From NCBI GenBank assembly GCA_014802045.1, contig JAAVDA010000003.1:1-45914 (forward strand): a stretch of 45,914 nt of DNA, given 5' to 3'. The DNA comes from Bacteroides sp. GTDB taxonomy: Bacteria; Bacteroidota; Bacteroidia; Bacteroidales; Muribaculaceae. Position numbers and translations under genes: made by a program. Below, piece by piece: positions 6,326-45,662 of this stretch (position 1 is its first letter; each line of letters starts with the position of its first letter). The notes beneath the pieces were generated by a model, which was not told the DNA's origin, did not search any database, and worked only from the letters and a program-made list of their open reading frames with translations.

Positions 6326-6327
6326 GG

Positions 6328-8133
6328 TTATTGGGCATTGATGTCAATCTTATGGACTACGGTGCCGTTTTCGTCATAGAGATGCACGGCGCAGGCCATA
6401 CATGGGTCAAACGAATGGAGCGTACGGATGATGCTCAGAGCCATTTCCGGGCTGTCGGGTGCGAATCCGGCCACAGGGGTGCCGATAATCGATTCCTCGA
6501 AGGCCGAGCGGAGATTGGCGGGGTCGCGTGGAGAAGCGTTCCATGTGGTGGGCACCACCATCTGATAGTTGGCTATCTTTCCGTGGGTTATGTGAGAGTA
6601 GTGGGCCAGCGCACCGCGTGGAGCCTCGTTGAGGCTGAATCCCATGCAGTCAGAGGGCCATGTGGAGGGCTGCCACTTGCTGCCGTTGAACATAGTTTCA
6701 TCGCCGGCCTTGATATTATCTATCAGCTTATTGTAGCATATCGACATATATTCGGCGGCTTCGACAGCATCAACCGCACGGGCAATGATGCGGCCGGCGG
6801 TGGAGAAGAGCGAATTGCGGTCTATGCCGCAGGCGCGTGAATTGAACTTGTCGGTCAGGGCGCTCCACTGCTTCACGGCACGGTCGGTAATGTCGATAGT
6901 CATGTCATTGCCGGAAGCGTAGTTGACGGCCAGACGTGCCAACGGCCCTACCTCCATCGGGTGGCCCATGTAGCGCGGTGTCTTTATCCAGCTGTAAGGC
7001 TGATCGCCCGGGAGCCAGTCAAACTGCGATGTGGGTCCGGTGTAGTCAAACACTGTCTCGCCGATAGATGGATGAAGTCCTTTGTCTTTGCCTACGGAAT
7101 ATTTATACCAGGCGTTGTTGACAAACTCCTGAAGGCCGTCAAGGCGCTTGGCATCAAAGGGTTCAACGTGAGAGAGGTCGCGGTTCATCACAATACCTTG
7201 CTTCTGCAGGCAATTGCCGAAGTCGCCGTAGTGGTTCATCGGATAGTCGCCATAGCTGAGATAGTTGTGCAGGCCTCCTCCTATGTGAGCCCATTCGGGA
7301 TAGAAAGCCATAATGGCCAGACAGTCGGGGAGGAACACCTCGTTGGCAAACCGGCTCACCTGCTCGGCAATCTCCTTAACGAAAGCCAGACGAGCCATGT
7401 TGATGGCATTGGGGTCTTGCATATTTATGGCGCATGCCATGCCACCTACGAGATAGTTGGGATGAGGGCTCTTGCCGCCGAAGATGGTCTGAATCTTGCA
7501 GATTTCTTTCTGGAATTCAAGAGCCTGCAGATAATGGGCCAGACCGATGAGGCTCACTTCAGGGGGGAGCTTATAGAGTTTCGAGCCCCAGCACCAGCGG
7601 TTGGTGGAGAACAGATTGTTTTTCGGATTGGCCTCTACAAACTTCTTCACCCTGCGCTGCACATCAGAGAAATAGCCGGGTGAATTTTCTCCCCACGGTG
7701 AATAGGAACTATTGAGCGGACTCAGCGACTGAGCTATGCGCGAGGCTTCAGCAGGATCGGCCTTGAGGGCTGCCACTATATCTACCCAGTCGAGCGCATC
7801 GAGCTGATAGAAATGGACGAGATGGTCGCGGCTCTGCAGGGTTGCAAGCATGATATTGCGCACCATCTCCGCATTGTAGGGTATCTCGATGCCGAGTGCA
7901 TTCTCGATGGAGCGCACCGATGCCAGGCCGTGCATGGACGTGCACACTCCGCACACACGCATCACGAAAGCCCACACATCGCGCGGGTCGCGGTCTTTCA
8001 CTATTATCTCTATACCGCGCACCATAGTGCCGGTGGAATATGCCTCGGTTATCACGCCGTCGCGCACCACGGCCTCCATGCGCAGATGACCCTCGATTCG
8101 GGTCACGGGATCTACAACTACTTTAATTTCCAT
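6328..8133 (-). CDS. hyaB: [NiFe]-hydrogenase large subunit (group 1, uptake)
   Basis: A 601-residue catalytic subunit. It shows the N-terminal RIEGH motif (12-16), the L1 nickel ligands RVCGVC (C61, C64) and the L2 ligands DPCMACAVH (C578, C581) ending at H584. A 17-residue tail follows the His; it must be removed by the HyaD-type protease for maturation. With the Fe(CN)2CO site built by the Hyp proteins it splits H2. It should be carried across the inner membrane with its Tat-targeted partner. Its start overlaps the end of hyaA by 11 nt, a sign of translational coupling. Confidence 0.97.
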   Translation of the reverse strand: MEIKVVVDPVTRIEGHLRMEAVVRDGVITEAYSTGTMVRGIEIIVKDRDPRDVWAFVMRVCGVCTSMHGLASVRSIENALGIEIPYNAEMVRNIMLATLQSRDHLVHFYQLDALDWVDIVAALKADPAEASRIAQSLSPLNSSYSPWGENSPGYFSDVQRRVKKFVEANPKNNLFSTNRWCWGSKLYKLPPEVSLIGLAHYLQALEFQKEICKIQTIFGGKSPHPNYLVGGMACAINMQDPNAINMARLAFVKEIAEQVSRFANEVFLPDCLAIMAFYPEWAHIGGGLHNYLSYGDYPMNHYGDFGNCLQKQGIVMNRDLSHVEPFDAKRLDGLQEFVNNAWYKYSVGKDKGLHPSIGETVFDYTGPTSQFDWLPGDQPYSWIKTPRYMGHPMEVGPLARLAVNYASGNDMTIDITDRAVKQWSALTDKFNSRACGIDRNSLFSTAGRIIARAVDAVEAAEYMSICYNKLIDNIKAGDETMFNGSKWQPSTWPSDCMGFSLNEAPRGALAHYSHITHGKIANYQMVVPTTWNASPRDPANLRSAFEESIIGTPVAGFAPDSPEMALSIIRTLHSFDPCMACAVHLYDENGTVVHKIDINAQ

Positions 8134-9232
8134 CTACCTCGTTGTTTTTGACTGGTTCGTCCTCGTTTTTAATCAGTTTTCTCTTCTGCACGTTTGTGAC
8201 CACGGCATGGATCGCCACTCCGGCCAGGGTTGCCACAGTAGCGGCGGCTCCTATCTTGTCGGCGGTGGCTTCGATGCCGATACCGTTGACGGAGGGGAGG
8301 TGCTGATAGAAGGGCTCCTGATCGAAATATCCCGGCTCAGCACAGCCTATGCAGGGATGGCCGCTCTGAATAGGATATGAGATGCAGTCGTTCCATCTCA
8401 TCACACCGCATGAATTGAATGTGTTGGGACCCTTACATCCCATATAGTAGAGACAATATCCTTTCTTGGCATTCTCGTCGTCGAAACTCTGCACGAAGAG
8501 ACCGGCATCGTAGAACGCGCGGCGATAGCAGGTGTCGTGGATGCGGTCGCGATAGAACATCTTCGGGCGGCCCATATTGTCAAGTTCGGGTAGACGCCCG
8601 AAAGTGATGTAATAGACAATCACACCGGCCATCACATCGGCTATCGGCGGGCACCCCTGCACATTGACCACTGGCTTTCCGTGGACGAGTTTGTGGACCG
8701 GTTTAGCCCCCGTGGGGTTAGGATAGGCGGCCTGGACGCATCCTGAAGAGGCACAGTTGCCCCATGCTATTATGGCGGCGGCTCCTTCAACGGCGTGGTT
8801 GAACTCTTCAAGAGCCGATTTGCCTCCGAGAGTGCAGTAGCCATAGCTGCCTGTAGGCACCGTACCCTCTACGCAGAGAATGTATTTACCGTAATTCTCC
8901 TGCATCGAGCCCTCCTTGGTTTCTTCTGCCGGATGTCCGCTGGCCGCCATAAGAAGGTCATCGTAGTCGAGCGATATAAGGTCGAGGAGTATTTTTCCCA
9001 CCAGAGGATGGGAGGCTCGGACAAACGACTCGCTGCAGCATGTGCATTCCTGGAAATGTTCCCATATCACATGCACGCGGGGCTTGGTTTCGAGAGCTTC
9101 GGCAATCTGGGCAATGCCGCTCTTCTGGAGGCCCATCATGGCGGCCATTATGCCGCAAAACTTCATGAAGTCGCGGCGGGTATAGCCCTTGTCGCGGAGA
9201 TGGCCGTAAACAGTGTTGTCTTTCTCTTTCAT
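8123..9232 (-). CDS. hyaA: [NiFe]-hydrogenase small subunit, six-Cys proximal cluster
   Basis: A 369-residue Fe-S subunit. The N-terminal TRRDFMK (18-24) plus a hydrophobic stretch is a twin-arginine signal, and a C-terminal hydrophobic helix (about 320-340) anchors it in the membrane. Proximal-cluster cysteines are C63, C66, C160 and C194. Two extra cysteines, C65 (in ECTCCSES) and C165 (in GNCASSGC), occupy the places of C19 and C120 of E. coli Hyd-1, which give the [4Fe-3S] cluster of oxygen-tolerant enzymes. Distal and medial cluster motifs (RIHDTCYRR, GYCLYYMGCKGP, SGHPCIGC) are intact. Best read as group 1d-like. Confidence 0.96.
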   Translation of the reverse strand: MKEKDNTVYGHLRDKGYTRRDFMKFCGIMAAMMGLQKSGIAQIAEALETKPRVHVIWEHFQECTCCSESFVRASHPLVGKILLDLISLDYDDLLMAASGHPAEETKEGSMQENYGKYILCVEGTVPTGSYGYCTLGGKSALEEFNHAVEGAAAIIAWGNCASSGCVQAAYPNPTGAKPVHKLVHGKPVVNVQGCPPIADVMAGVIVYYITFGRLPELDNMGRPKMFYRDRIHDTCYRRAFYDAGLFVQSFDDENAKKGYCLYYMGCKGPNTFNSCGVMRWNDCISYPIQSGHPCIGCAEPGYFDQEPFYQHLPSVNGIGIEATADKIGAAATVATLAGVAIHAVVTNVQKRKLIKNEDEPVKNNEVDGN

Positions 9233-9254
9233 ATTTGGAGGCTTAAGGATATTT

Positions 9255-10298
9255 TCAGCATATTCGGGGCAATTGGTCGCCGGCCAGAGGCTCGATGAGC
9301 CGACGGTTGCCTAACGGAAGGCGAAGCCACACCCGCCCCCCTTCAGGATCGGGCGCACAGGCCTTTCCGATAATGGCGCCGTCTGCTCCGTGGGCCGAAC
9401 GGCGCACAGCTGCCAGAGCGGCCTCGGCCTCAGCCGGAGGCACTACGGCCACCATTATCCCCTCGTTGGCCACATGGAGCGGGTCAAGACCGAGAAGTTC
9501 GCAGGCCGAGCTGACCCGGGGATTTATGGGGATAGCATCTTCAACTATCTCTATATTCACGCCAGAGGCGGCGGCAAATTCACACAGAGTGCCGGCAAGG
9601 CCGCCTCTGGTGGGGTCGCGGAGCACACGGAGCCCCGGAGCCACCGAGAGAAGTGCATGGACTATATCGCCGAGAGATGCGGTGTCGCTCTCAATGGCAG
9701 AGCTGAATCCGAGCTGTTCTCTCTGCGACATAACGGCCATGCCATGCGAAGCTATGGGACCGGTAATTATAATCACATCGTCAGGACGAATGTTGTCAGG
9801 GTCAAGATCAAGCGATGGAGGGAGGATGCCGATTCCGGCGGTATTGATATAAATCCCGTCACACTTTCCGTGTTCCACCACCTTGGTATCGCCGGTGACG
9901 ATTTCTACTTCTGCCTCTCTCGCTGCGGCGGCCATGGAATCGGCAATTTGCTTGAGATCGGCAATCGGAAGTCCCTCTTCGATAACGAATCCCACAGATA
10001 TATATCTCGGGGTCGCTCCAACCGACAGGAGGTCGTTGACCGTGCCGTTAACCGCCAGATCGCCGATATTTCCTCCGGGGAAGAAAAGGGGGCTCACCAC
10101 GAAAGTGTCGGTAGTGAATGCCATTCTTTCTCCCGATGGCGGCAGGATGGCGCTGTCGAGCCCTCGGTCAAGAAGACTATTGCCGAAACGGGGCCGGAAG
10201 ATTCGCTCTATCAAACGCGAAGTCATCGAGCCTCCGCTTCCGTGGGCAAGCTCTATTCGGTCGGTGATTCGGTCGGGTATCGGACAGGTGGGGGTCAT
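9255..10298 (-). CDS. hypE: Hydrogenase maturation factor HypE
   Basis: HypE receives a carbamoyl group from HypF on its C-terminal Cys and dehydrates it to the thiocyanate that gives the CN ligands of the active-site iron. The protein has the N-terminal ELAHGSGG, the AIR-synthase-like ATP-binding fold (GDTKVVEHGKCDG, RDPTRGGLAGTL) and ends in PRIC with the essential terminal Cys. The frame is open 74 codons further upstream, but that part lies within hypD and is basic and unlike the family; the ATG at 10298 gives 347 residues, the usual length. It follows hypD by 56 nt and precedes hyaA by 22 nt. Confidence 0.95.
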   Translation of the reverse strand: MTPTCPIPDRITDRIELAHGSGGSMTSRLIERIFRPRFGNSLLDRGLDSAILPPSGERMAFTTDTFVVSPLFFPGGNIGDLAVNGTVNDLLSVGATPRYISVGFVIEEGLPIADLKQIADSMAAAAREAEVEIVTGDTKVVEHGKCDGIYINTAGIGILPPSLDLDPDNIRPDDVIIITGPIASHGMAVMSQREQLGFSSAIESDTASLGDIVHALLSVAPGLRVLRDPTRGGLAGTLCEFAAASGVNIEIVEDAIPINPRVSSACELLGLDPLHVANEGIMVAVVPPAEAEAALAAVRRSAHGADGAIIGKACAPDPEGGRVWLRLPLGNRRLIEPLAGDQLPRIC

Positions 10299-10354
10299 AT
10301 ATATGAGTGATGAATTTATTGGGGATGGATAGTTTTTATTGGTATGGATAGTTT

Positions 10355-11452
10355 CTATCGGTATCTGTAGTGAGCAGCGCAGACTCCTTCGGCCGAGACC
10401 ATCGGAGCGCCGAGAGGATTGTCGGGAGTGCATCCGCATCCGAACGACACACAGTCTGACGGATTTGCAAGCCCTCTCATGATCCGTCCGGCTATGCAGG
10501 GAGAGCTTTCGGCCAGACACACCGCAGGCTTAACATCTTTCCAACGCCGGCGGGCATCAAAATGTTCATATCCGGGGCGGAGCACCATGCCGCTCCCCTC
10601 TATAGTGCCTATTCCTCTCCAGTGGGCGGGAGCCTGGGAAAAGACACGGCTCACAGCTTCCTGCGCCACCCGATTGCCCTCCTCCTTCACCACCCTCCGA
10701 TAGGCGTTGACGCATGCCGATTCGCCCCTTTCGAGCATCTCTACAGCCCGGAGTATGCCCAGAAGCATATCTGCCGGCTCAAAACCGGTCACAACTACCG
10801 GCATGTTGAGTTGGGCGGCCAGAGCCTTGTAGGGGGCGGTGCCGGTGACCGCACACACATGGCCCGCCGCAAGCAAAGCATCCACTCTTGAATCGGGGTC
10901 TTTCTTTATGGCTCTGACGGCCGCCGGCACAGTGTAGAGCGAGGTGAGGAGCGAGAGGTTGCCTATGCCGGCTTCGGCGGCTTTCTCAACCATCACGGCA
11001 TAGGATGGCATGGTTGTCTCAAATCCGATGGCAAGAAACACCACCTCTCTGCCGGGGTTTTCCCGGGCTATCTTTATGGCATCTACCGGAGAATAGAGCA
11101 GTCTGACGTCGGCTCCGGCAGCTTTCGCCCGAAGAAGAGACCCGTCAGTGCCCGGCACACGGAGCATATCGCCAAATGAGCATAATATCACCTCCTTGCG
11201 TGAGGCAATGCTGATAGCGGTGTCTATTACCTCGGCCGGAGTGACACACACCGGGCATCCGGGTCCGTGGAGCATCTTCACCTCCGATGGGAGGAGCTCC
11301 TCAAGTCTGTAGCGGGTAAGGGTGAATGTCTGGCCACCGCATACCTCCATGATGTTCCACGGACGGGTCACGGCAGCTTCTATCCGCTGCAGCAATCCCC
11401 GCATCGAGGCGGCATCGCGGTAGGGGGCGGAAGAGTCCGGCGAAATCAGCAT
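10355..11452 (-). CDS. hypD: Hydrogenase maturation factor HypD
   Basis: A 365-residue scaffold that, with HypC, builds the Fe(CN)2CO group. Conserved parts are visible: MEVCGGQTFTLTRYRLEELL near the start, HGPGCPVCVTP with the redox Cys pair, GFETTMPSYAV, TGFEPADML and a C-terminal Cys-rich Fe-S region (NPSDCVSFGCGCTPDNP). It overlaps hypC by 7 nt. Between its stop and hypE lies a short direct duplication (GGATGGATAGTTTTTAT and GGTATGGATAGTTTCTAT, 10322-10358) that looks like recent slippage. HypA, HypB and HypF are not in this window and must be encoded elsewhere if the enzyme is made. Confidence 0.96.
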   Translation of the reverse strand: MLISPDSSAPYRDAASMRGLLQRIEAAVTRPWNIMEVCGGQTFTLTRYRLEELLPSEVKMLHGPGCPVCVTPAEVIDTAISIASRKEVILCSFGDMLRVPGTDGSLLRAKAAGADVRLLYSPVDAIKIARENPGREVVFLAIGFETTMPSYAVMVEKAAEAGIGNLSLLTSLYTVPAAVRAIKKDPDSRVDALLAAGHVCAVTGTAPYKALAAQLNMPVVVTGFEPADMLLGILRAVEMLERGESACVNAYRRVVKEEGNRVAQEAVSRVFSQAPAHWRGIGTIEGSGMVLRPGYEHFDARRRWKDVKPAVCLAESSPCIAGRIMRGLANPSDCVSFGCGCTPDNPLGAPMVSAEGVCAAHYRYR

Positions 11453-36090: not shown

Positions 36091-36120
36091 CTTGCAGTTT
36101 CAAAAAAATGCGTAACTTTG
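36091..36120 (+). promoter_or_regulatory. Promoter of the SRP RNA gene
   Basis: CTTG (36091-36094), 18 nt, TAACTTTG (36113-36120). The RNA's base-paired 5' end begins 4-5 nt after the -7 box, which fixes the start-site offset for other promoters in this window. Confidence 0.8.
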
Positions 36121-36124
36121 CAGC

Positions 36125-36221
36125 GGGTAAGTCCTACACGACCAGCTCCCCGGGAACTCCGCCAGGTCTTGATCGAAGCAACGGTACCGGGTCGTAGCGG
36201 TGCGATGTAGTCAGCTTACCC
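36125..36221 (+). ncRNA. ffs: Small signal recognition particle RNA (4.5S-type)
   Basis: A 97-nt RNA. Its ends pair (GGGTAAG at 36125-36131 with CTTACCC at 36215-36221) and T6 follows as the terminator. Inner arms pair further (ACGACC with GGTCGT). The domain IV core CCAGGTC...GAAGCAACGG matches the SRP54-binding symmetric and asymmetric loops of the family. The apical loop, however, reads TTGATC where the standard is CGGAAG. The RNA binds Ffh and docks FtsY for co-translational membrane targeting. Confidence 0.88.
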
Positions 36222-36269
36222 TTTTTTGTATCCCTACGCAAAACTTCATCTTCACCCGAAAGCGGGTCA

Positions 36270-36500
36270 GCAAAACCTGGTTGAATTGTTAGAAAGCGGG
36301 TCAGTGGCAAACCTCAGTTTATAAGTTAAGAAAGGCCCGGAGGGCCATGATTTTGTTAACCCGGCACGTGTCGTGCCGGGAACAGCCAGCCCCAATCACA
36401 TTCCGACCCCGGAGTGGGTCGTACCTCACATATTTTATCATTTATTAAAATATTGATTTACAGTATATATTACGTCTTTCATTGAGATATTACAGATTAA
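36270..36500. repeat. Left copy of island-flanking three-hairpin repeat
   Basis: Bases 36270-36425 match 43743-43898 base for base over 156 bp with six mismatches and no gaps, in the same orientation. Three hairpins follow one another: GGCCC-GGA-GGGCC (36334-36346), CCCGGCACG-TGT-CGTGCCGGG (36360-36380) and CGACCC-CGGAGT-GGGTCG (36404-36421). A second block (36469-36500) matches 44101-44132 with two mismatches. GAAAGCGGGTCAG occurs twice near the left end (36258 and 36291). No gene is present in 36228-36500. Confidence 0.92.
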
Positions 36501-36804
36501 GTCCAAGGAGACAATATATTACCATATTACCTCAGCAGTGGAGAGCGTAACGATGCGTCATATTTTGCCGAATGTTTCCACGCTCACTGGAGCATAGAAA
36601 AAACAGCATTGGCATCTGGATGTTACTTTCAAAGAAGACCAATGCAGGGTAAGAACAAAGAGCGGAGCGGCAAATTTATCTTCAAGCCGCAAATATGCTA
36701 TGTAATTACTTAAGAAGCAGACTGACAAACTCAGTCTAAAACGCAGACGTAAGAAATATATGCGTAATCTAACCTTTCTCAGCAAGGTTGTGAACGAAAG
36801 TTAA
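36501..36804 (+). pseudogene. Decayed ISAs1-family transposase, C-terminal remnant
   Basis: Translation from 36501 gives YYLSSGERNDASYFAE and then AHWSIE (36582-36599); a one-base gain in a run of A shifts the frame, after which HWHLDVTFKEDQCRV and LLKKQTDKLSLKRRRKKY continue to TAA at 36802-36804. These are the C-terminal blocks of ISAs1 (H-repeat) DDE transposases (YYISS, RAHWxIENxLHW, LDVTFxED). An in-frame TAA also interrupts it around 36700-36710. The N-terminal catalytic part is gone. It abuts the flanking repeat and marks the island's left edge as an old insertion site. Confidence 0.82.
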
Positions 36805-36839
36805 ATTTCATACGCCGACCCTGATCTAAAAACAAGAAA

Positions 36840-36884
36840 TACCCTTTTGTGTTATTCCGACTCGCTTCATCCGACCTATCTTTG
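36840..36884 (+). promoter_or_regulatory. LuxR-type operator and promoter of the ThiF-like gene
   Basis: Operator TACCCTTTTGTGTTAT at 36840-36855; -7 box TATCTTTG at 36877-36884. The first base of the operator lies 37 bp upstream of the -7 box, and the ATG follows 25 nt after it. No -33 TTTG is present at the usual distance, so the promoter probably needs an activator bound around -42. Confidence 0.75.
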
Positions 36885-36909
36885 TCGCATTATTCAAATA
36901 TATCCCAGT

Positions 36910-37665
36910 ATGGATCGATATAACCGCAATAGAATTTATGTGAGTCCGGAAGAGCAGGAAAAGATACGTGAAACCCGGATATTGCTCGGTGGAGCCGGTA
37001 TTGGCAGTATAATTGCAGAATGCGCTCTTCGCTTCGGATTTGAAGATATAGCGATAGTCGATGGCGATAAGGTGGAGCTCTCCAATCTTAACCGGCAGAA
37101 CTATGTAAAGAGCGATATTGGCAAACCCAAGGCGGAATCCCTTACCAAAAGACTTCTTAAAATTAATCCAAAAGCTAATATCCGCTTTTATAATACTTTC
37201 ATTGATAATGATAATGTCAGCGAACTTCTTGAGGGTGTAGACATAGCTATCAACGCCCTTGATTTCAAGAGCGACATCCCGTTTGTGTTTGATGAACTTT
37301 GTTCTAAAAAGAAGATTCCCGTACTACATCCTTACAATTTCGGATGGGGAGCATTTCTCACCATCATCAAGCCCGGCAGCTATCAGCTAAGGGAGGTATC
37401 AGCATCTTATGAAGGATTCGAGATCAAGATGGCTGAGTTTGTCGCCCGCTACTGTACATTCTGGAATATGCCTAACCGCTGGCTCGATGATGTAATCGAG
37501 ACATACAGAATGGAACCGGGAGAGTTACCCCCGCCTCAACTTTCGGTTGCCTCATGGATTGTGGCCGGACTATGCGCCAATGCCATGTTTGATATAATCA
37601 CCGGCCGCGAAGTAAAATACTTTCCTAAATTCTACTTCTCCTCTCTACGCTGCGACCCTGCGTAA
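36910..37665 (+). CDS. ThiF/MoeB/HesA-family E1-like adenylyltransferase
   Basis: About 251 residues from ATG 36910; the 21 codons further upstream cover the operator-promoter and are excluded. The Rossmann fold has LLGGAGIGSI (27-34), IVDGDKVELSNLNRQ with the metal Asp and the Arg finger, and KPKAESL. There are no CxxC zinc pairs and no obvious catalytic-Cys loop, so it differs from MoeB and ThiF proper. The family adenylates a C-terminal carboxylate of a small protein or peptide. No ubiquitin-like partner is adjacent. It shares an operator with the acyltransferase and glycosyltransferase genes, and ends 3 nt from the convergent regulator gene. Confidence 0.82.
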   Translation: MDRYNRNRIYVSPEEQEKIRETRILLGGAGIGSIIAECALRFGFEDIAIVDGDKVELSNLNRQNYVKSDIGKPKAESLTKRLLKINPKANIRFYNTFIDNDNVSELLEGVDIAINALDFKSDIPFVFDELCSKKKIPVLHPYNFGWGAFLTIIKPGSYQLREVSASYEGFEIKMAEFVARYCTFWNMPNRWLDDVIETYRMEPGELPPPQLSVASWIVAGLCANAMFDIITGREVKYFPKFYFSSLRCDPA

Positions 37666-37668
37666 CAA

Positions 37669-38433
37669 TTATATCAGCTGATGATTTTGTGCATAAGTCA
37701 CGGCCTCTGCGATATTCTTGACATCCATCTTCTGAAATATACTGCGTTTACAAGCCTTGACGGTATCAACCGATTTGCATATATTGTCGGCTATCTCATT
37801 CATAGTATATCCCTGAGTCGACAGTGAGAGAACTTCCCGCTCGTTATCGGTCAGCGTAATTTCCTTATGCTTCTCCCACTTGTGGTCATAGAGGGAATAC
37901 TGATAGAACATCCCGGAACCTGGTCTTTTCATAATAACATTACCCGGATCATTACCCGCCGCAAGCGATATTGTGCATATCGCAAGCCAGATTCGGCCAT
38001 CTTTTGTCAGGATCAGAGGTGTCAGCTTATGGTTTATAAGTCGCTTGCGCCGTCCTCTTAAGATATGAAAATCATACGAGATAGTATAATCTTTTCTCTC
38101 TCCTACCGGAAAGGTATTGAATAGCTTGAAGACGCTGTTATTGATCTCGAGAAGCATCTTCAGATCTTCCGCCGGAACATAGTCTATATAAAATAGATAT
38201 CCGAAATCTTTAATCTTCTCAGCGTCGCCTCCACACAGACGGGCAATATTCTTGGATACATATAGAAAGCCCTTCTTGAAGTAATCTATGATATATACAC
38301 ACTGATACGTGCTCCTTTCGAAGGCCTCTGCTGCCTCTATAATGAGTCCTGTCTTTTCATAATCGGCCTCTGTAATATTTTCCACCGAATTTTGAAGTGA
38401 AAAGAAGTCGCCTGTCTGGATATTGGTAGTCAT
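37669..38433 (-). CDS. PAS-LuxR transcriptional regulator
   Basis: About 254 residues from ATG 38433 (38448 is an in-frame alternative, but the -7 box at 38464-38457 would leave it only a few leader bases). The N-terminal half is PAS-like (YIIDYFKKGFLYVSKNIARL), with ISYDFHILRGRRKRLINHKL following, as in a family of Bacteroidota sensors. The C-terminal LuxR-type helix-turn-helix reads ITLTDNEREVLSLSTQGYTM, then ADNICKSVDTVKACKRSIFQ (about 195-245). It lacks a receiver domain, so it probably senses a small ligand or state. It is the obvious candidate to bind the operators at 36840, 38496, 38535, 39249 and 39287. Confidence 0.88.
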   Translation of the reverse strand: MTTNIQTGDFFSLQNSVENITEADYEKTGLIIEAAEAFERSTYQCVYIIDYFKKGFLYVSKNIARLCGGDAEKIKDFGYLFYIDYVPAEDLKMLLEINNSVFKLFNTFPVGERKDYTISYDFHILRGRRKRLINHKLTPLILTKDGRIWLAICTISLAAGNDPGNVIMKRPGSGMFYQYSLYDHKWEKHKEITLTDNEREVLSLSTQGYTMNEIADNICKSVDTVKACKRSIFQKMDVKNIAEAVTYAQNHQLI

Positions 38434-38456
38434 AATGCCGAGTATCAATTATTGTG

Positions 38457-38509
38457 CAAATATAATAAAATTCCACCACACAGAGCACAACATACTACAC
38501 AAAAGGGTA
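38457..38509 (-). promoter_or_regulatory. Inverted operator and promoter of the LuxR-type gene
   Basis: On the minus strand TACCCTTTTGTGTA at 38509-38496 and -7 box TATATTTG at 38464-38457. The operator-to-box distance is 45 bp rather than 37, so its effect on this promoter (autoregulation) may differ. Its centre lies 39 bp from the plus-strand operator of the divergent acyltransferase gene. Confidence 0.65.
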
Positions 38510-38534
38510 ATTTTCAATCCATAGTCGGCTGTAA

Positions 38535-38579
38535 TACCCTTTTGTGTCATATTTAGGATATTAGCTCCTAATAGTTTTG
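38535..38579 (+). promoter_or_regulatory. LuxR-type operator and promoter of the acyltransferase gene
   Basis: Operator TACCCTTTTGTGTCAT at 38535-38550; -7 box TAGTTTTG at 38572-38579, again 37 bp between first bases. The ATG follows 26 nt after the box. Confidence 0.75.
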
Positions 38580-38605
38580 CGGGAAAATTCAAAACCGTCT
38601 TAACT

Positions 38606-39232
38606 ATGGAGGATATTGTTTGGTCATGCAGTGACTACTCTATTATCAAAGTCGGAACAGACCGGCTTCATGATATAGCCAGATTCGTTGTAACACAGAA
38701 TTACAGTCATCATTCATACGGTTCTATCCCGGAGACATCAAATCAGGAAATCGAGGACATATTCCATGAAGAGCTGGCTTATTCAGGAACTTCGATGTAT
38801 TTCATCGTAGTGAACGCAGATGGGAAAATGATCGGATGCATAAGAGTGTTCAAATGGGACAAGCTAACCCCAACACCAATGCAGAAAATTTTCCACATCT
38901 CCCCGCTGGAAAAAGTAACCTACACTCCGCAAACATCCTTCTGGCATATCGGACGCTTTGCTATAGATTCCACATCAGGTCTGTCTACCATAACCCTGTT
39001 CAAACAACTTATGACTCTCGCCGTGGCTCCTATACTGCGTGAGGACGACAGCTATATGATTGCTGAGACAGACAGCCATCTACTCCGAGTAATGAATCTC
39101 CTCGGCATAGAGACACGTCAGATAGGGGAACCTATGATTTATCTCGCTTCTGAAACAATTCCTGTTTATTCAAGTAAGCGGGGGCTAACACGTTTTTATC
39201 AAAGATATTATCCTCTTTTAGTGGCATCGTGA
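38606..39232 (+). CDS. GNAT-fold acyltransferase, LuxI/FeeM-like
   Basis: A 208-residue soluble protein. YFIVVNADGKMIGCIRVFKW (65-84) matches the central strand of autoinducer-synthase-like acyltransferases, and WHIGRFAID (113-121) corresponds to their W-E-x-S-R-F-A-V strand, with the Arg kept and the Glu replaced by His. GIETRQIGEPMIYL near the C-terminus fits the final strand. Such enzymes (LuxI, FeeM) join an acyl chain to an amino acid or related amine. The N-terminal LuxI signature is weak, so FeeM-like N-acyl amino acid synthase is the safer reading. It is divergent from the LuxR-type gene and shares its operator. Confidence 0.65.
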   Translation: MEDIVWSCSDYSIIKVGTDRLHDIARFVVTQNYSHHSYGSIPETSNQEIEDIFHEELAYSGTSMYFIVVNADGKMIGCIRVFKWDKLTPTPMQKIFHISPLEKVTYTPQTSFWHIGRFAIDSTSGLSTITLFKQLMTLAVAPILREDDSYMIAETDSHLLRVMNLLGIETRQIGEPMIYLASETIPVYSSKRGLTRFYQRYYPLLVAS

Positions 39233-39248
39233 GCCAATTCAAGCACAT

Positions 39249-39262
39249 TACACAAAAGTGTA
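39249..39262. promoter_or_regulatory. Fourth operator copy, perfect dyad
   Basis: TACAC-AAAA-GTGTA, an exact inverted repeat of 5 bp arms with a 4-bp spacer. It lies 16 nt after the acyltransferase stop, and its centre is 38 bp from the next operator. Confidence 0.65.
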
Positions 39263-39286
39263 TAAATAACCTCAACCTCAAAGAAT

Positions 39287-39331
39287 TACCCTTTTGTGTA
39301 ATAGAAGGATGACACACGCAATCTAATTTTG
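39287..39331 (+). promoter_or_regulatory. LuxR-type operator and promoter of the glycosyltransferase remnant
   Basis: Operator TACCCTTTTGTGTAAT at 39287-39302; -7 box TAATTTTG at 39324-39331, first bases 37 bp apart. ATG 27 nt after the box. The third copy of this exact layout. Confidence 0.75.
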
Positions 39332-39358
39332 CATCGTAAACAAAAATCTAAAAGGTAA

Positions 39359-39748
39359 ATGTCAATCACTCCAAAAATATCCGTCTGCATGGCTATGTAC
39401 AACGCCGCCACACATCTGCGCGAGTGTGTTGACAGCGTATTGGCTCAGACCTTTGCCGACTTTGAGCTACTCATTGTCGATGACGGATCTACCGATAGCA
39501 GTGCCGATATCGTACGCTCATACTCCGACTCTCGTATCCGTCTTATCTGTCGGCCTCACGACTTCATTGCCTCGCTCAACACCCTTCTCAGCGAAGCACG
39601 CGGACACTATATTGCCCGAATGGATGCCGACGATATCATGATGCCTGACCGCCTGCAGATCCAATACAACTATCTTGAGACCCATCCCGAAGTTGCTGCG
39701 TTCTGCTCCCAGGCAGTAAGGATTGACTCTCATGGACAACCGAATTGA
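39359..39748 (+). pseudogene. Truncated family 2 glycosyltransferase (129 residues)
   Basis: The N-terminal GT-A half is well preserved: ISVCMAMYNAATHLRECVDS, LIVDDGSTDSS and RMDADDIMMPDR with the metal-binding DAD. The frame then stops at TGA 39746-39748 after HPEVAAFCSQAV and HGQPN, before the acceptor-binding half. The following 43 bases are A+T-rich and non-coding, so the rest is lost rather than shifted. It keeps an intact regulated promoter, so a short protein may still be made; an active transferase is unlikely. Confidence 0.75.
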
Positions 39749-39791
39749 TCCTATATAACACTTTTTACACAAACCAATTATTATCCTAATT

Positions 39792-40550
39792 ATGAGATAT
39801 TATAAACAACTAGTAATGATTTTTATATTCTTGAGTGTATTCTTCTATATGTCAGGTCAAGACAAAGGTAGCTCAAGAGTCTTAGAGCATCGTCTAAAAG
39901 GCAACATAATGAACCTTGTGACGGGGCATTATGTGAGTGACTCTATAAAAGTGGATATTTTAGATGCCGATAGTGTGATAGTTGCATCAGATTATAATCA
40001 TCTCAATACATCGCGTGAATATCGCAATGGTGATGAGCTGATTTATCAATTCGATATCCCGTTCAAAGGAGCGGGGAATAATTTCATTGTTCGCCTCCAG
40101 CATCCTGACTACGACGAGGTAAGCTACCCGGTGACAGTTAATGGATTTAGCAGTGATTTGGGTATGCTGAAAATCCGGAAACTCAGTAAATTTGAAAAAG
40201 ATGTAATATTGGGTGAGGTTGTAGTAAAAGCTTCAATTGTGCAAGTGGTAAACAAAGGTGACACAATCCAATATAATGCCGATGCATTTGCTGTGGCTCA
40301 GGGGTCTATGCTTGATGCACTTCTTGAAAAAATGCCCGGAGTTGAGCTGCGCGAAAATGGCCAGATTTATGTGAACGGACGCTTTGTAGATAAACTGCTC
40401 CTCGACGGAAAGGATTTCTTCCAAGGAGAGCAGTTTGTACTCCTCCAGAATCTCCCCGCATATACGATTAAGAATATGAAAGTTTTATTTTGCAGTATGA
40501 ATGTTTGCGGTAGTAATTTTGCAATGTCAAAACAATCAAAACCCATATAA
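39792..40550 (+). pseudogene. Truncated TonB-type outer-membrane receptor (N-terminal part)
   Basis: A 252-residue product: signal peptide (ends SGQ), a carboxypeptidase-regulatory-like domain and then a plug-like block (GDTIQYNADAFAVAQGSMLD, LDALLEKMPGVELRENGQIY, LLLDGKDFFQGEQF). The same blocks occur in the full-length receptor downstream (GDTVVFNADAFQLSNGSMLD and so on). Likeness ends at NMKV; the last 21 residues read into the promoter of the small-peptide gene. The beta-barrel is missing, so it is a broken paralogue, perhaps from a deletion between two tandem receptor genes. Confidence 0.8.
40489..40521 (+). promoter_or_regulatory. Promoter of the 57-residue peptide gene
   Basis: TTTG (40489-40492), 21 nt, TAATTTTG (40514-40521). 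Full match of both boxes to the Bacteroidota consensus; the ATG is 30 nt after the box. It sits inside the tail of the truncated receptor frame. Confidence 0.75.
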
Positions 40551-40551
40551 A

Positions 40552-40725
40552 ATGAAAAAACTCTTATCACTGATTCTCGCAATGATGGCATTCGTTATTC
40601 CATCAGAATATCGCATGATGAATAAATACGAAGGCAAAGAGATTGATGTTTGTCCGCTAATCAAACACGATCTTGATGAATTCCTCTATCTCCATTTCCT
40701 ACACAAGACAGGTGAAACCTGCTAA
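40552..40725 (+). CDS. Small secreted-type peptide (57 residues)
   Basis: An unrecognised peptide. MKKLLSLILAMMAFVIP is a typical export signal (Lys-Lys then a hydrophobic core). The remaining part of about 38 residues is charged, with two Cys (34 and 57, the last residue) and an aromatic-rich end. It has its own consensus promoter and lies 19 nt before the full-length receptor gene, so the two are likely co-transcribed. It could be a peptide signal, a lipoprotein-like remnant, or the leftover start of a lost gene; I cannot tell which. Confidence 0.5.
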   Translation: MKKLLSLILAMMAFVIPSEYRMMNKYEGKEIDVCPLIKHDLDEFLYLHFLHKTGETC

Positions 40726-40744
40726 ATACCAAAACTTATAAAAT

Positions 40745-43600
40745 ATGAGATTCTTCATAACGCTATTACTAACAATCATTAGCATAAACGCTAGTCTCGC
40801 ACAGTCATTTACTATAGACGGGCGCGTGTGTGACAAAAACGATAAGGAGGACCTCGTTGGTGCAACGGTACGATTGTTGTCGTTGCCCGACTCCGCTTAC
40901 GTCTCCGCATCATCTGCCTATCGACGTGCAATGCGTCATGGAGAAGAGGAAATCACATCGGCTTTCACTCTCACCCTACCGTCTCGTTCTTCTTCCTACC
41001 TAATAGAAATCAGTGCTTCGGGATATGACAACGAGTTTATAAAGGTAGATCCGTCTGCCTATGGGGAGCGTGTACGAAGAGTCGAGTTACCCTTGATTTT
41101 ACTGAGTCCAAAATCCCGTGAACTCGGAGAAGTGACGGTGACTTCCTCGCGCATTAAGTTTTTTCATCATGGCGATACTGTGGTGTTTAATGCCGATGCT
41201 TTTCAACTGTCCAACGGTTCTATGCTTGACGCGCTCATCAGTCAAATGCCGGGTGTCGAACTTAAATCCAATGGTCAGATACTTTATAATGGGAAACAGA
41301 TAGAGTCCCTGCTACTTGACGGCAAGCACTTTTTCAACGGCAACAATCAGCTTATGTTGGAAAATATCGGAGCATACGCAGTCAAGAATGTCAAAATATA
41401 TGACAAAGCCGGAGATGCAAGTGAGTTTGCCGGACGAAATCTCGGTAATGATAAGCAGCTTGTAATGGATGTGAGGCTAAAGAAAGAGTATTCTACCGGG
41501 TTGATACTAAATGCCGAAGCCGGAGGGGGCACACATGACCGTTATCTCGGTCGGCTTTTCGGAATGTGGTTTAACTCGGATACCAGACTGACTGTATATG
41601 CCAACGCCAACAACCTGAACGATGACCGCAAACCGGGGCGAGCCGATTCATGGAAGCCGGAACAACTAAAATCAGGTGTCAAGAAGTCGGATACAGGCGG
41701 ATTTGATTATGTCACTGATAAGAAGACCGCAGGATGGAAAGCTTCGGGTAATGTACAGATCAGTCATGAGACTCTTGATGACGAGACAAGTATTTACCGG
41801 ACGAATTTTCTTACAGCCGGAGATACATACGACCGTACTTTCATTGGGAATCATTCAAAAACATTCCGGATTTCTACCAATCATGAATTGTATTTCAAGC
41901 GCAAGATGTTTGACCTGACTGTCACACCTCGTTTCGAATACAACAATCGTCACAACACCACAACAAATGCGAGTGCCACATTCTCTTCTGATGTTCAGGG
42001 AATCACCTTTGATGACCTTATGTCAAGTGCAGAAAGCACAACTCCAGGATATACAAGCGGCCTTATCAACAGGACGGTCAATGAAAATCTAAACCGGGCA
42101 AAGACCCTTACTGCTGGCATCACTGCCAACTCACGCATTAAAATCAATGGTAGTTCAGACATCATACGTTTGGGAGCTTTCGGTAACTATAATAATCTAC
42201 GTGATGACAGATTTAATCGCTACGTTATTGAATACGGCGAGAATCCCGACATGAATCTGTATCTTGATCGCTACTTCAAGAACCGACCGAATAATAATTC
42301 GAGATTCGGAGCAACAGCCGGCTACAACAGGCGTCTGGCTGAGGGCATATCGCTTGAACTGACATATCGGTATGCGCATTCCATACGCAATGCTAACTCT
42401 ACCCTTTACAACCTTCATGAAACAGACGCAGACAGACAGCTTCCCATAGGACAGCTTCCGTCTATGGCGGAATATGCCTCGACAATCGACCGCTCAAACA
42501 GTTATAAAAGCCATTATCTGGATAATGATAATACGTTATCGCCTCTAGTCGTATTCGACAAGGGCAACTGGAGTGGACAGGTAAACTTGCCAGTCACCGT
42601 AGCGGGAAGGACTCTTGACTATCTTCGCGGAGACATCGATGCGCATATCAGGCGAAACACTATTTTGGTCAATGTGGAGAATACCTTCATTCAATGGCAG
42701 GCCGCTGACCGCACCAAGAAAGTGGAGTTCAACTACAACATGACTTCTGAGACTCCGGATTTGATAAATCTTGTCGACATGACCGACGCTGTTGACCCGA
42801 TGAACATATATCTCGGAAATTCAGGTCTCAAAAATTCACACCTTCACAGTTTCAGGCTCGGAACGGAATTGGTCAATCCTAAGACACGGGTAATGCAGTT
42901 TATAACCTTACGTTATTCTCTGCTCGACAACGCCCTGTCGAAAGGCTATATCTACGAAAGCGCCACCGGCATACGACGCTACAAGACATACAATGTCAAC
43001 GGCAACTGGGATGCAAACGCCTCATACGGTGTCGGACTGCAGTTCGGCAAGACAAAGCAGATAACATTGCAATCTCTGACAACGGCAAGCATAGTCAACA
43101 GCGTGGATCTCGTTGGCGAAGATGACACAGAGCCAAGCCGCAATAAGGTAGTGACTAAAGGGGTCAATGAGATTCTTAAACTAGCTTACTCGCTTGGCAA
43201 ACATTCTATAGGAGCCAATGCTGATGTGACCTATCGGAATTACTCCGATATGGCAAATATGAATACCTGGACTCAGCAATATGGCGTGAACGCATTGATC
43301 AGCATAACTCCGGCTCTCCAGCTTTCTACGGACTTCAACGTTTTCACCCGGTCAGGCTACTGCAACCGCAAGCTGAACACAACCGACCTGGTGTGGAACG
43401 CACGACTCAGCTATTCGCTGATGAAAGGTCAGCTTCAACTCATGCTTGACGGATTTGACATGTTGCACAATCTGAGCAACGTCACATCCAATGTCAATGC
43501 TCAGGCGAGAACAGAAACATACGTCAGCGTGTTGCCCCGCTATTTCATGTTTCACGTGCAATATCGGTTCAACCGCCAACCGAAGAAACGTAAAAAATAA
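40745..43600 (+). CDS. Outer-membrane receptor-like beta-barrel protein (TonB-type)
   Basis: A 951-residue protein: signal peptide (1-19, ending SLAQ), an N-terminal carboxypeptidase-regulatory-like domain with FTIDGRVCDKNDKEDLVGAT, then a plug-like block (DTVVFNADAFQLSNGSMLDA, QMPGVELKSNGQILYNGKQI) and a large C-terminal barrel (MFHVQYRFNR near the end). It ends in a basic KKRKK tail. It is of the OMP_b-brl_3 group rather than a SusC with its partner; no SusD-like gene is here. It is the intact paralogue of the broken gene upstream. The ligand is unknown; peptide or metal-chelate transport is possible. Confidence 0.85.
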   Translation: MRFFITLLLTIISINASLAQSFTIDGRVCDKNDKEDLVGATVRLLSLPDSAYVSASSAYRRAMRHGEEEITSAFTLTLPSRSSSYLIEISASGYDNEFIKVDPSAYGERVRRVELPLILLSPKSRELGEVTVTSSRIKFFHHGDTVVFNADAFQLSNGSMLDALISQMPGVELKSNGQILYNGKQIESLLLDGKHFFNGNNQLMLENIGAYAVKNVKIYDKAGDASEFAGRNLGNDKQLVMDVRLKKEYSTGLILNAEAGGGTHDRYLGRLFGMWFNSDTRLTVYANANNLNDDRKPGRADSWKPEQLKSGVKKSDTGGFDYVTDKKTAGWKASGNVQISHETLDDETSIYRTNFLTAGDTYDRTFIGNHSKTFRISTNHELYFKRKMFDLTVTPRFEYNNRHNTTTNASATFSSDVQGITFDDLMSSAESTTPGYTSGLINRTVNENLNRAKTLTAGITANSRIKINGSSDIIRLGAFGNYNNLRDDRFNRYVIEYGENPDMNLYLDRYFKNRPNNNSRFGATAGYNRRLAEGISLELTYRYAHSIRNANSTLYNLHETDADRQLPIGQLPSMAEYASTIDRSNSYKSHYLDNDNTLSPLVVFDKGNWSGQVNLPVTVAGRTLDYLRGDIDAHIRRNTILVNVENTFIQWQAADRTKKVEFNYNMTSETPDLINLVDMTDAVDPMNIYLGNSGLKNSHLHSFRLGTELVNPKTRVMQFITLRYSLLDNALSKGYIYESATGIRRYKTYNVNGNWDANASYGVGLQFGKTKQITLQSLTTASIVNSVDLVGEDDTEPSRNKVVTKGVNEILKLAYSLGKHSIGANADVTYRNYSDMANMNTWTQQYGVNALISITPALQLSTDFNVFTRSGYCNRKLNTTDLVWNARLSYSLMKGQLQLMLDGFDMLHNLSNVTSNVNAQARTETYVSVLPRYFMFHVQYRFNRQPKKRKK

Positions 43601-44132
43601 GTCTACCAACAGATTTCCCCTATGAATGAGAATATTAAATGATAAAATCTCTCAACTTGGCGTAATATACGCTTGATTACTGAAAATCAGCGATAGAGAC
43701 CCTTCAAATCTATTCTACCCTTATACATTTTATGGGTCTGTGGCAAAACCCGGTTGAATTGTTAGAAAGCGGGTCAGTGGTAAACCTCAGTTTATAAGTT
43801 AAAAAAGGCCCGGAGGGCCATGATTTTGTTAACCCGGCACGTGCCGTGCCGGGAATAGCCAGCCCCAATCACATTCCGACCCCGGAGCGGGTCGTACCGC
43901 ACAGACGCATCATAACATTCATGAACATATTTGTTTACAATTAGTCCGACCCTCTCCGGGGTCGTGGGAGATGTGTGATACTATCCACCCCGCACGCAAG
44001 CGTGCGGGGCTAACAAGATATCAGGCCATCCCGGCCTGGCTCACTACTTTCATTAGCTCAACAACTCCCTTTTAACAACCACTTTTTTACATTGACCCAT
44101 ATTACGTCTTTCATTGGGATGTTACAGATTAA
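43601..44132. repeat. Right copy of island-flanking repeat and gene-free tail
   Basis: No gene in this stretch. 43743-43898 is the second copy of the 156-bp three-hairpin repeat; 44101-44132 is the second copy of its distal block. Between them are 202 bases (43 in the left copy) with two further perfect hairpins: CCCCGCACG-CAAG-CGTGCGGGG (43988-44009) and CAGGCC-ATCCC-GGCCTG (44022-44038). The extra hairpins suggest that units of this repeat are modular. Confidence 0.9.
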
Positions 44133-44175
44133 AGAAAATCGTCCGTCCTATTCCCATGTGGGAGCAGGACGGACG
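44131..44175 (-). terminator. Intrinsic terminator of the DUF1846 gene
   Basis: A 10-bp stem CGTCCGTCCT / AGGACGGACG (44140-44149 with 44166-44175); the loop itself holds CCCATGTGGG-like pairing. On the minus strand it is followed by ATTTTCTTT. It lies about 24 nt after the stop. Confidence 0.85.
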
Positions 44176-44198
44176 TGTTTCATAGCCATTTGCTGAAG

Positions 44199-45662
44199 TC
44201 AGCGTTTGCGCACAGGGTCGCAGGTGAGACCCACACCGAGCTTCTTGAAAATCTTATGGTCTACCTCGCCGAGCATCACGGTGGAATGCACCTGACAGCC
44301 GTTGAACTGCGGAAGCATCTCAAGAGCACGGCGGCAGTTTTCGTCGTGAGTGCTGAGCACGGATAGCGCCACAAGCACTTCGTCGGTGTGCAGGCGCGGA
44401 TTGTGGCCGCGCAGATAGTTGAGCTTGGTATACTGGATAGGCTCAATCATCTCCTGGGGAATGAGCTTCACGCTGTGGTCTATTCCGGCGAGATGCTTCA
44501 CGGTATTGAGAATCAGAGCTGCGCTCGGACCGAGCAGTTCGCCAGATTCGGCGGTGATGATAGTGCCGTCGGCGAGCTCTATCGCCGAGCTGGGTTTGCC
44601 ACACTTTTCGGCTCTCTCCTTGGCTGCTGCAACAGGCCGGCGGAAACCGGTGTCGATTTTGGCCTGCTTCATGAGCAGGGCAATCTTATTGACTTCGCTG
44701 TCGGAGCAGTTGCCCTGAGCGAGATGATTGAGCGAGGTGAAGTAGCGGCGGATTATTTCGTCTTTCGACGCGCGACAACACACTTCGTCGTCGCTTATGC
44801 AGAATCCAACCATATTGACCCCCATATCGGTGGGCGATTTGTAGGGGTTTTCTCCGTAGATGCCCTCGAAGAGCGCGTTGAGCACGGGGAATATCTCTAT
44901 GTCGCGGTTGTAGTTGATGGCGGTCTTGCCGTAGGCCTCAAGATGGAAGGGGTCGATCATATTCACATCGTTGAGGTCGGCGGTGGCTGCCTCGTAGGCA
45001 ATATTGACAGGATGCTTAAGGGGGAGGCTCCACACCGGGAAGGTCTCAAACTTCGCATAGCCCGCCTCGATGCCTCGCTTATTCTCATTGTAGAGCTGGC
45101 TCAGGCACACAGCCATCTTGCCGCTTCCGGGTCCCGGAGCTGTGACGATGACCAGAGGGCGCGAGGTGCGGATGTAGTCATTGTGGCCGAATCCTTCGTC
45201 GGAGGCTATGAGGCCCACATTGTTGGGGTAGCCCTCGATGGTGTAGTGATAGTAGGTGGTGATGCCGAGACGCTCGAGACGCTGCCTGAAGGCATCGGCG
45301 CTTATCTGACCGTTGTAGTGGGTGATGCAGACAGAGCCGACCAGAAAGCCGCGTTTCTGGAACTCCTCGCGCAGACGGAGCACATCCATATCGTAAGTGA
45401 TGCCGAGGTCCTGACGCACCTTGTTTTTCTCGATATCGAGAGCACTGATTACTATCACTATCTCTGCGTGGTCCTGTAACTGGGTGAGCATCCTCAGCTT
45501 GCTGTCGGGCTCGAATCCGGGGAGCACCCGGCTTGCGTGGTGGTCATCAAAAAGTTTGCCGCCGAGCTCAAGATAGAGCTTGTTGCCGAACTGAGCAATG
45601 CGCTCCTTGATGTGTTCGGACTGAATTTTGAGATATTTCTCGTTGTCGAAGCCGTGTTTCAT
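44199..45662 (-). CDS. DUF1846 family protein
   Basis: About 487 residues from ATG 45662. The whole length matches the DUF1846 family of anaerobes and Firmicutes: GFDNEKYLKIQSEHIKERI at the N-terminus, LELGGKLFDDHHASRVLPGF, then TAPGPGSGKMAVCLSQLYN with a P-loop-like glycine run, and DPFHLEAYGKTAINYNRDIE. The family has no firmly established function. The upstream in-frame Met (45674) precedes the predicted transcript start and is not used. Its own promoter and terminator make it a single-gene unit. Confidence 0.92.
   Translation of the reverse strand: MKHGFDNEKYLKIQSEHIKERIAQFGNKLYLELGGKLFDDHHASRVLPGFEPDSKLRMLTQLQDHAEIVIVISALDIEKNKVRQDLGITYDMDVLRLREEFQKRGFLVGSVCITHYNGQISADAFRQRLERLGITTYYHYTIEGYPNNVGLIASDEGFGHNDYIRTSRPLVIVTAPGPGSGKMAVCLSQLYNENKRGIEAGYAKFETFPVWSLPLKHPVNIAYEAATADLNDVNMIDPFHLEAYGKTAINYNRDIEIFPVLNALFEGIYGENPYKSPTDMGVNMVGFCISDDEVCCRASKDEIIRRYFTSLNHLAQGNCSDSEVNKIALLMKQAKIDTGFRRPVAAAKERAEKCGKPSSAIELADGTIITAESGELLGPSAALILNTVKHLAGIDHSVKLIPQEMIEPIQYTKLNYLRGHNPRLHTDEVLVALSVLSTHDENCRRALEMLPQFNGCQVHSTVMLGEVDHKIFKKLGVGLTCDPVRKR

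Follow-up and report, generated by a model that had tools for sequence, protein, structure and literature searches.

A cassette of three genes and associated operators, identified in a genome of the family Muribaculaceae, is probably an autoinducing acyl-signal cassette and very likely belongs to the N-acyl-cyclolysine (ACL) system. It lies within a 45,914-nucleotide stretch of a Bacteroides sp. (contig JAAVDA010000003.1 of assembly GCA_014802045.1), hereafter the window, and encodes a ThiF-family enzyme, a PAS-LuxR regulator and an N-acyltransferase (Table 1). In the predicted circuit, the acyltransferase would N-acylate an amino acid, the ThiF enzyme would cyclise the acylated amino acid using ATP, and the PAS-LuxR protein would sense the cyclised acyl product, bind the sequence TACnC-TTTT-GnGTA near position -42 and activate luxR, the genes of both enzymes and the cargo that follows the last operator, presumably in dependence on cell density.

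The ACL system of Bacteroidota is said to have been described by Linares-Otoya, Donia and others (Nature, 2025) as the set of AclA, an acyltransferase and AclR, and reportedly comprises an ATP-dependent cyclase with solved structure, a lysine acyltransferase and a dedicated transcription factor. It is said to be autoinduced, to be co-localised with operons for secreted molecules and to be specific to Bacteroidota; if the same chemistry holds here, the amino acid would be L-lysine and the ring a lactam. Like the dedicated transcription factor of ACL, the PAS-LuxR protein is encoded beside both enzymes, not only in the window but at 39 of the 45 acyltransferase loci of named genomes. From the operators before thiF, the acyltransferase gene, luxR and the cargo, autoinduction is predicted. 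The window copy differs in its partly decayed cargo and in being accompanied by a paralogue that lacks the acyltransferase. A sequence-only reading of this DNA had called the system undescribed; in view of the 2025 work this is not supported, and systems of this type have very probably been described already.

Table 1. Features of the cassette and its cargo in the window
Feature	Position	Strand	Evidence or remark
Operator facing thiF (TACnC-TTTT-GnGTA type)	36840..36853	+	box 37 bp downstream
-7 box TATCTTTG, thiF promoter	36877..36884	+	
ThiF-family adenylation/cyclase-type enzyme, 251 aa	36910..37665	+	Pfam ThiF; PDB relative
PAS-LuxR (GerE helix-turn-helix) regulator, 254 aa, convergent with thiF	37669..38433	-	GerE match
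-7 box TATATTTG, luxR promoter	38457..38464	-	45 bp from luxR operator
Operator facing luxR (inverted copy)	38496..38509	-	motif search (match 38494-38509)
Operator before acyltransferase gene	38535..38548	+	
-7 box TAGTTTTG, acyltransferase promoter	38572..38579	+	
FeeM/LuxI-fold N-acyltransferase, 208 aa	38606..39232	+	
Inverted operator copy, directly past acyltransferase stop	39249..39262	-	motif search (match 39247-39262)
Operator before cargo	39287..39300	+	
-7 box TAATTTTG, cargo promoter	39324..39331	+	
Conserved control cassette (operator-thiF-luxR-acyltransferase-operator)	36828..39345		DNA similarity to L027
Cargo: family-2 glycosyltransferase, truncated, 129 aa	39359..39748	+	Glycos_transf_2 match
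Cargo: outer-membrane-barrel-type gene, truncated	39792..40550	+	model from 951-aa neighbour gene
Cargo: outer-membrane-barrel-type protein, 951 aa	40745..43600	+	own profile model

Operators and promoter boxes

Each of the three plus-strand operators, of the sequence TACCCTTTTGTGT(T/C/A)AT, is followed exactly 37 bp from its first base by a TAnnTTTG box, and the ATG stands 25 nt (thiF), 26 nt (acyltransferase) or 27 nt (cargo) past the box. TAnnTTTG is the -7 box of Bacteroidota and begins at about -12, and LuxR-type activators usually sit near -42; given this box start, the operator is predicted to be centred near -42. As judged by eye, no TTTG stands between dyad and box in any of the three promoters. 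The positions of operators, boxes and start codons and the lack of a -33 TTTG element had been claimed by the sequence-only reading and are borne out, as are the two inverted copies listed in Table 1. One of these faces luxR, with a box 45 bp away; behind the other no minus-strand gene was recognised, and TATCTTTG at offset 55 from it falls inside the acyltransferase gene. The arms TACnC and GnGTA are symmetrical and the TTTT core is asymmetrical, so that the site has a direction.

The window holds 3 operator-plus-box matches against 0.00 expected by chance, and 5 motif matches with at most one mismatch against 0.02 expected (100 shuffles). When the whole genome was searched with up to two mismatches, 14 matches were obtained (6 with the reversed control pattern), of which 13 fall at three loci, i.e., 5 in the window, 5 in a copy of the locus on contig C24 and 3 in the paralogue on contig C15; the single match on contig C28 was dismissed as noise in view of the 6 control matches. 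When the gap was allowed to vary, the genome gave 11 exact operator-plus-box matches, every one at these same loci, and the control gave 0. The motif is therefore not spread widely through the genome, which was one of the two refuting outcomes named by the sequence-only reading.

Within the family (297 genomes), the operator-plus-box pattern was present in 62 of the 98 genomes carrying the regulator, against 6 of the 199 genomes lacking it, and the reversed control was 0 in every family genome listed. For the wider set, core sites were counted in chosen loci, after dropping the C24 copy, L011, L113, L128-L134, L158-L161, L165, L169, L172 and short loci. Among the 210 distinct core sites, 98 have TAnnTTTG at offset 37, where 0.12 is expected per offset; further boxes are located at offsets 44-46 (25 sites), 36 or 38 (5 sites) and elsewhere (10 sites). 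In locus L112, two interleaved TACCCAATTGGGTA site pairs stand upstream of luxR (9156-9207).

The acyltransferase, the ThiF enzyme and the regulator

The sequence-only reading had proposed a LuxI/FeeM-like acyltransferase, and the fold check of the 208-residue protein agrees with this: FeeM is the best structural match of the model, followed by synthases of N-acyl homoserine lactones (AHL), including LasI and TofI. At the sequence level, the window protein scores 18.9 bits against the FeeM family PF21926 (cut-off 27) and 16.6 bits against Autoind_synth PF00765 (cut-off 24). With a threshold of E<=0.05, 26 of 31 acyltransferase members match PF21926 (best 9.8e-7) and 5 of 31 match Autoind_synth (best 0.0055); the best relative may pass the PF21926 cut-off. 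When the acyltransferase profile was compared with that of six FeeM-type proteins from the phylum, the probability was 39.6; as judged from the model, the link to FeeM is structural. PF21926 matches were found in 7 of 80 phylum genomes, 5 of them above cut-off, and in eight short PF21926 loci no open reading frame (ORF) of at least 100 aa matched the ThiF, LuxR or acyltransferase models (E<=1). The top matches of the profile among PDB sequences, SconeE (3.3e-6) and Scone-R (1e-4), were taken as false because these are designed repeat proteins with weak repeated segments.

The weak Autoind_synth matches and the LasI/TofI fold could be read as marks of a true LuxI-type AHL synthase working with an AHL-sensing LuxR protein. 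The LuxI signature WExSRF has an acidic residue; in the acyltransferase its position is occupied by His114, invariant in 31 members, which counts against such a synthase. Since, in addition, FeeM is the best match in both fold and family, the sensor half of the regulator aligns to PAS, LOV and VqmA proteins, and a ThiF partner is not known from AHL synthesis, we regard an AHL synthase as exceedingly improbable.

The ThiF enzyme matches Pfam ThiF (E 8.8e-38) and, over residues 3-247, is a close homologue of PDB entries 9EGB, 9EGC and 9EGD (E 4.8e-93 in a sequence search), which are probably AclA, although the records carry only the name THIF-type protein. Among 45 different full-length ThiF sequences, at least 97% keep GxGxGS, DGD, NLNRQ, K74 and D118, adenylation residues among them. 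The sequence-only reading had treated thiF simply as a target of the regulon; an operator does stand in front of it, but the better reading is that its protein carries out the second biosynthetic step of the circuit. PRK14852 was rejected as a precedent for a fused FeeM-ThiF protein, because only general ThiF matches were obtained and 0 of 99 genomes exceeded the cut-off.

In the published OxzAB, TyzACB and TrzAS pathways, an N-acyl amino acid synthase that has the fold of AHL synthases acts together with an ATP-dependent ThiF cyclase (PMC10404671, PMC12856293); TrzS requires ThiF Asp217 (PMC12856293), and some N-acyl tyrosine clusters are accompanied by ThiF genes (PMC12479983). From these precedents an acylated, cyclised amino acid is expected as the product. 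The same circuit might then make an acyl-oxazolone (azlactone) instead of an acyl-cyclolysine, as the enzyme pair is the same and the TrzAS authors note the resemblance of acyl-oxazolones to AHLs (PMC12856293). These pathways use an O2-dependent flavin desaturase, and a LuxR partner is unmentioned in the relevant passages of the two papers (PMC10404671, PMC12856293). In the neighbourhoods listed here, no flavin-dependent desaturase was recognised by eye, no search being aimed at desaturases. The window ThiF scores 60.8 bits against the Rv1355c-family model (cut-off 476), no better than against general ThiF models, and the amino acid reported for ACL is lysine, so that we consider an acyl-oxazolone product improbable.

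The regulator gave a GerE match of 6.8e-12 and an AlphaFold model with pLDDT 90. By structural comparison the model matches 3CLO, quorum receptors (through the helix-turn-helix), VqmA and LOV/PAS proteins; AHL receptors align to it via the helix-turn-helix only and the sensor half aligns to PAS, LOV and VqmA proteins, a missing row in this comparison excluding nothing. The sensor domain thus looks like a PAS-type and not an AHL-binding domain in the model. The claim of a LuxR-type regulon stands as to the sites near -42 and the conserved cassette, and is amended as to the sensor. As in LuxI/LuxR systems, a synthase is encoded beside its activator, the site is located near -42, there seems to be positive feedback and the synthase fold is shared; unlike in those systems, the synthase is FeeM-like, a ThiF partner is present and a PAS-type sensor seems to replace the AHL-binding domain. 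The receptor architecture is that of VqmA of Vibrio cholerae, the receptor of 3,5-dimethylpyrazin-2-ol (DPO), with 6UGL, 6KJU and 6IDE matched at root-mean-square deviations of 12.6-13.7, values presumably due to differently turned domains. Tdh produces DPO from threonine, and the VqmA/DPO system is not known to include an acyltransferase or a ThiF enzyme.

Occurrence of the trio and of receptor-only loci

The acyltransferase was found in 9 of the 297 family genomes, 4 of 393 genomes of an order sample and 8 of 247 of a phylum sample, each including the query genome, and in 10 of 111 genomes of genus g30, to which the query genome does not belong. A scan of named genomes (one genome per species, 84,980 species, two peptide patterns) gave 45 acyltransferase loci, including those of Muribaculaceae, Bacteroides fragilis Q1F2, Mediterranea, Prevotella, Segatella, Hoylesella and Sphingobacterium and one 4.7-kb record labelled Eubacteriales; these loci are not independent, several being near-identical and some contigs being shared with another sampled set. 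LuxR and ThiF are both encoded nearby in 39 of the 45 loci, though in a few of them ThiF or the acyltransferase is cut short or split, and the co-occurrence suggested by the sequence-only reading therefore extends from Bacteroidales to Sphingobacterium. In L131 and L132 ThiF adjoins the acyltransferase, with LuxR 10.5 and 19 kb away, and L156-L159 stop at contig ends. For 57 loci from overlapping sets, LuxR was present in 51, ThiF in 50 and both in 47. Seven Flavobacteriales-like loci (order guessed) comprise three with the full trio, three lacking a nearby ThiF and one lacking LuxR. Pairwise distances over 27 loci correlate between acyltransferase and ThiF (r 0.945) and between acyltransferase and LuxR (0.888), although shared descent alone also yields such correlation. 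Plasmid records gave no acyltransferase match, and literature searches, in which the term cyclolysine was not among the queries, gave no title on the trio.

The conserved unit is the cassette itself. Between the window and L027, the stretch 36828-39345 is the sole similar DNA (77%; word size 28, E<=1e-20), and stretches of 2.5-3.2 kb centred on the cassette are shared by L142/L143, L142/L144, L142/L146, L145/L144, L150/L154, L137/L139 and L027/L028; in four of the seven pairs there is a further stretch as well. L027 carries a second acyltransferase copy, identical in protein sequence and with its own operator. Separately, L147, L148 and L149, from records of three Prevotellaceae species (P. 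ihumii, H. timonensis and P. histicola), share 18.8 kb at 98.5-99.98% (reference L147); either the stretch was transferred recently or the records are mislabelled or contaminated.

Several findings weigh against an acyl-signal circuit of the ACL kind. Most family genomes with the regulator lack the acyltransferase (98 against 9 of 297). ThiF is missing within 11-12 kb in L189, L193 and L194, three of the six LuxR-linked Flavobacteriales-like loci; L191 has acyltransferase and ThiF but no LuxR, and L010 (the C15 paralogue) and L068 have a full-length ThiF beside LuxR but no acyltransferase. No box stands at offset 37 from 112 of the 210 core sites; in Sphingobacterium the exact core was detected in only 4 of 10 loci (L164, L166, L167 and L169; plus-strand scan), and in the mapped loci L164 and L167 it is not 37 bp from a box. 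The acyltransferase sequence model found no FeeM-type protein of the PF21926 set at E<=1. The sequence-only reading had asked whether relatives carry luxR without the sites and without the neighbouring enzymes: the sites do go with the regulator in the family, even if 36 of the 98 regulator-positive genomes lack the exact pattern, but the acyltransferase in most cases does not. As a side observation, the distant acyltransferase-ThiF pair of L191 (5950-7426) adjoins genes that resemble, by eye, those of a LytTR response regulator and sensor kinase.

The excess of regulators over acyltransferases might mean that the PAS-LuxR protein senses another ligand, such as a flavin or a diet or host compound, both enzymes being ordinary targets; PAS domains indeed bind many ligands. 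This is hardly probable, as the trio stays together in groups as far apart as Bacteroidales and Sphingobacterium, and also at three of the seven Flavobacteriales-like loci, and as the distances of acyltransferase, ThiF and LuxR rise jointly, with the reservation on descent given above.

If the acyl-signal circuit is correct, many more species may listen than speak. We compared 33 loci that have LuxR but no acyltransferase (L073-L105); they were the highest entries of the match list and not a random sample. L079 and L104 have an acyltransferase elsewhere in the genome, and some of the loci are short, so that genes may lie past their ends. The 27 sensor positions invariant in 24 acyltransferase-linked regulators are retained at 97% on average in these loci, against 96% for 13 helix-turn-helix positions, and retention is therefore not sensor-specific. 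A ThiF-like ORF (112-250 aa, often about 177 aa) occurs in 18 of the 33; the nucleotide-binding motif is present in none of these 18, against 45 of 45 full-length ThiF sequences, and five aligned fragments miss the middle of the adenylation half. For 15 longer fragments, the median ratio of nonsynonymous to synonymous substitution rates was 0.18 over 17 usable of 105 pairs, mostly from six sequences, with 87 of the 105 saturated; within the comparable pairs, these values show the shortened ThiF to be under apparent purifying selection. Judging from these sequences, the receptor-only regulators appear to be functional receptors whose ThiF part is non-enzymatic. We hold it possible, though with somewhat less than even confidence, that the Muribaculaceae-type receptor-only form represents eavesdropping receptors, whose non-enzymatic ThiF partner would bind, buffer or block the signal, and which would control outer-membrane and peptide genes. 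On this view many of the regulators retain operators with the 37-bp spacing, and in many loci the shortened ThiF is what is left after loss of the adenylation half. This form is possibly the new part, and the interest of the system centres on it together with the operator rule and cargo swapping.

Cargo genes and surroundings

The glycosyltransferase and barrel genes were rejected as part of the machinery, because similarity to L027 stops at the last operator, and they look like cargo. The glycosyltransferase matches Glycos_transf_2 (E 1.4e-31) and ends at profile position 120 of 168; the 951-aa barrel-type protein has no Pfam match above cut-off, and some genes found with the barrel models in relatives match OMP_b-brl_3 (PF14905). 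With fragments of a glycosyltransferase and a barrel gene beside one long barrel-type gene, the cargo appears partly decayed, and the window copy may thus have little output; it would have more if the C15 paralogue's barrel genes were targets as well.

Cargo of other loci varies. GG-leader-like peptides and radical SAM proteins occur together in L028, L030, L035, L072, L137 and L147 (ORFs; Pfam), and a radical SAM protein is encoded nearby in L127 and L142. C39-peptidase ABC exporters were identified in L028, L035, L137, L142, L147 and L188 (Pfam), and OMP_b-brl_3 barrels in L028, L030 and L192, L035 having a barrel-like protein without Pfam match. LanC-like and nitrile-hydratase-leader-like proteins occur in Flavobacteriales-like genomes, lipoproteins at other loci and nothing obvious in Sphingobacterium; no GG-leader-like ORF was found in window positions 36300-44300. 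Such sets resemble the Bacteroidales clusters for ribosomally synthesized and post-translationally modified peptides (RiPP) with GG-leader peptide, radical SAM protein, C39 transporter and outer-membrane protein, for which LuxR, ThiF and acyltransferase do not appear in the main text of the study (PMC10352776). If the acyl-signal circuit holds, gut, oral and environmental Bacteroidota would switch ribosomal peptides, exporters and outer-membrane proteins by one such circuit, and the operator rule, by which the site precedes the -7 box by 37 bp, allows candidate targets to be listed from the sequence.

GNAT-type lipopeptide RiPP maturases are a known class, and the peptide and radical SAM genes near the acyltransferase would also fit a maturase that lipidates the adjoining peptides and makes no signal. 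No peptide cassette was seen by the trio in the mapped L163, L164 and L167 of Sphingobacterium or in L111, however, and L072 has a peptide cassette with LuxR but no acyltransferase within 19 kb. As the acyltransferase tracks LuxR and ThiF while the cargo varies, peptide lipidation seems quite unlikely.

The assembly comprises 37 contigs and has a listed completeness of 75.7%. Contig C24 (L009) carries a strain-variant copy of the locus, 99.2-99.9% identical, the barrel-gene fragment being 252 aa in the window and 290 aa in C24, and the assembly seems to mix two strains. The paralogue on contig C15 has thiF, two barrel-type genes and a luxR divided between two frames, and lacks the acyltransferase; the frame split (L010, 7786-8632) lies near a G-rich run and may represent error, decay or phase variation. 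Directly upstream of the island lies a Bacteroidales small signal recognition particle RNA (36118-36225). A 161-bp direct repeat, 96% alike, flanks the island (36270-36430 and 43743-43903); it was rejected as an insertion-specific mark, being dispersed with 16 genome matches, including both island copies and their C24 twins. Window positions 5086-11452 hold an apparent NiFe hydrogenase operon with maturation factors, as judged from the translations only.

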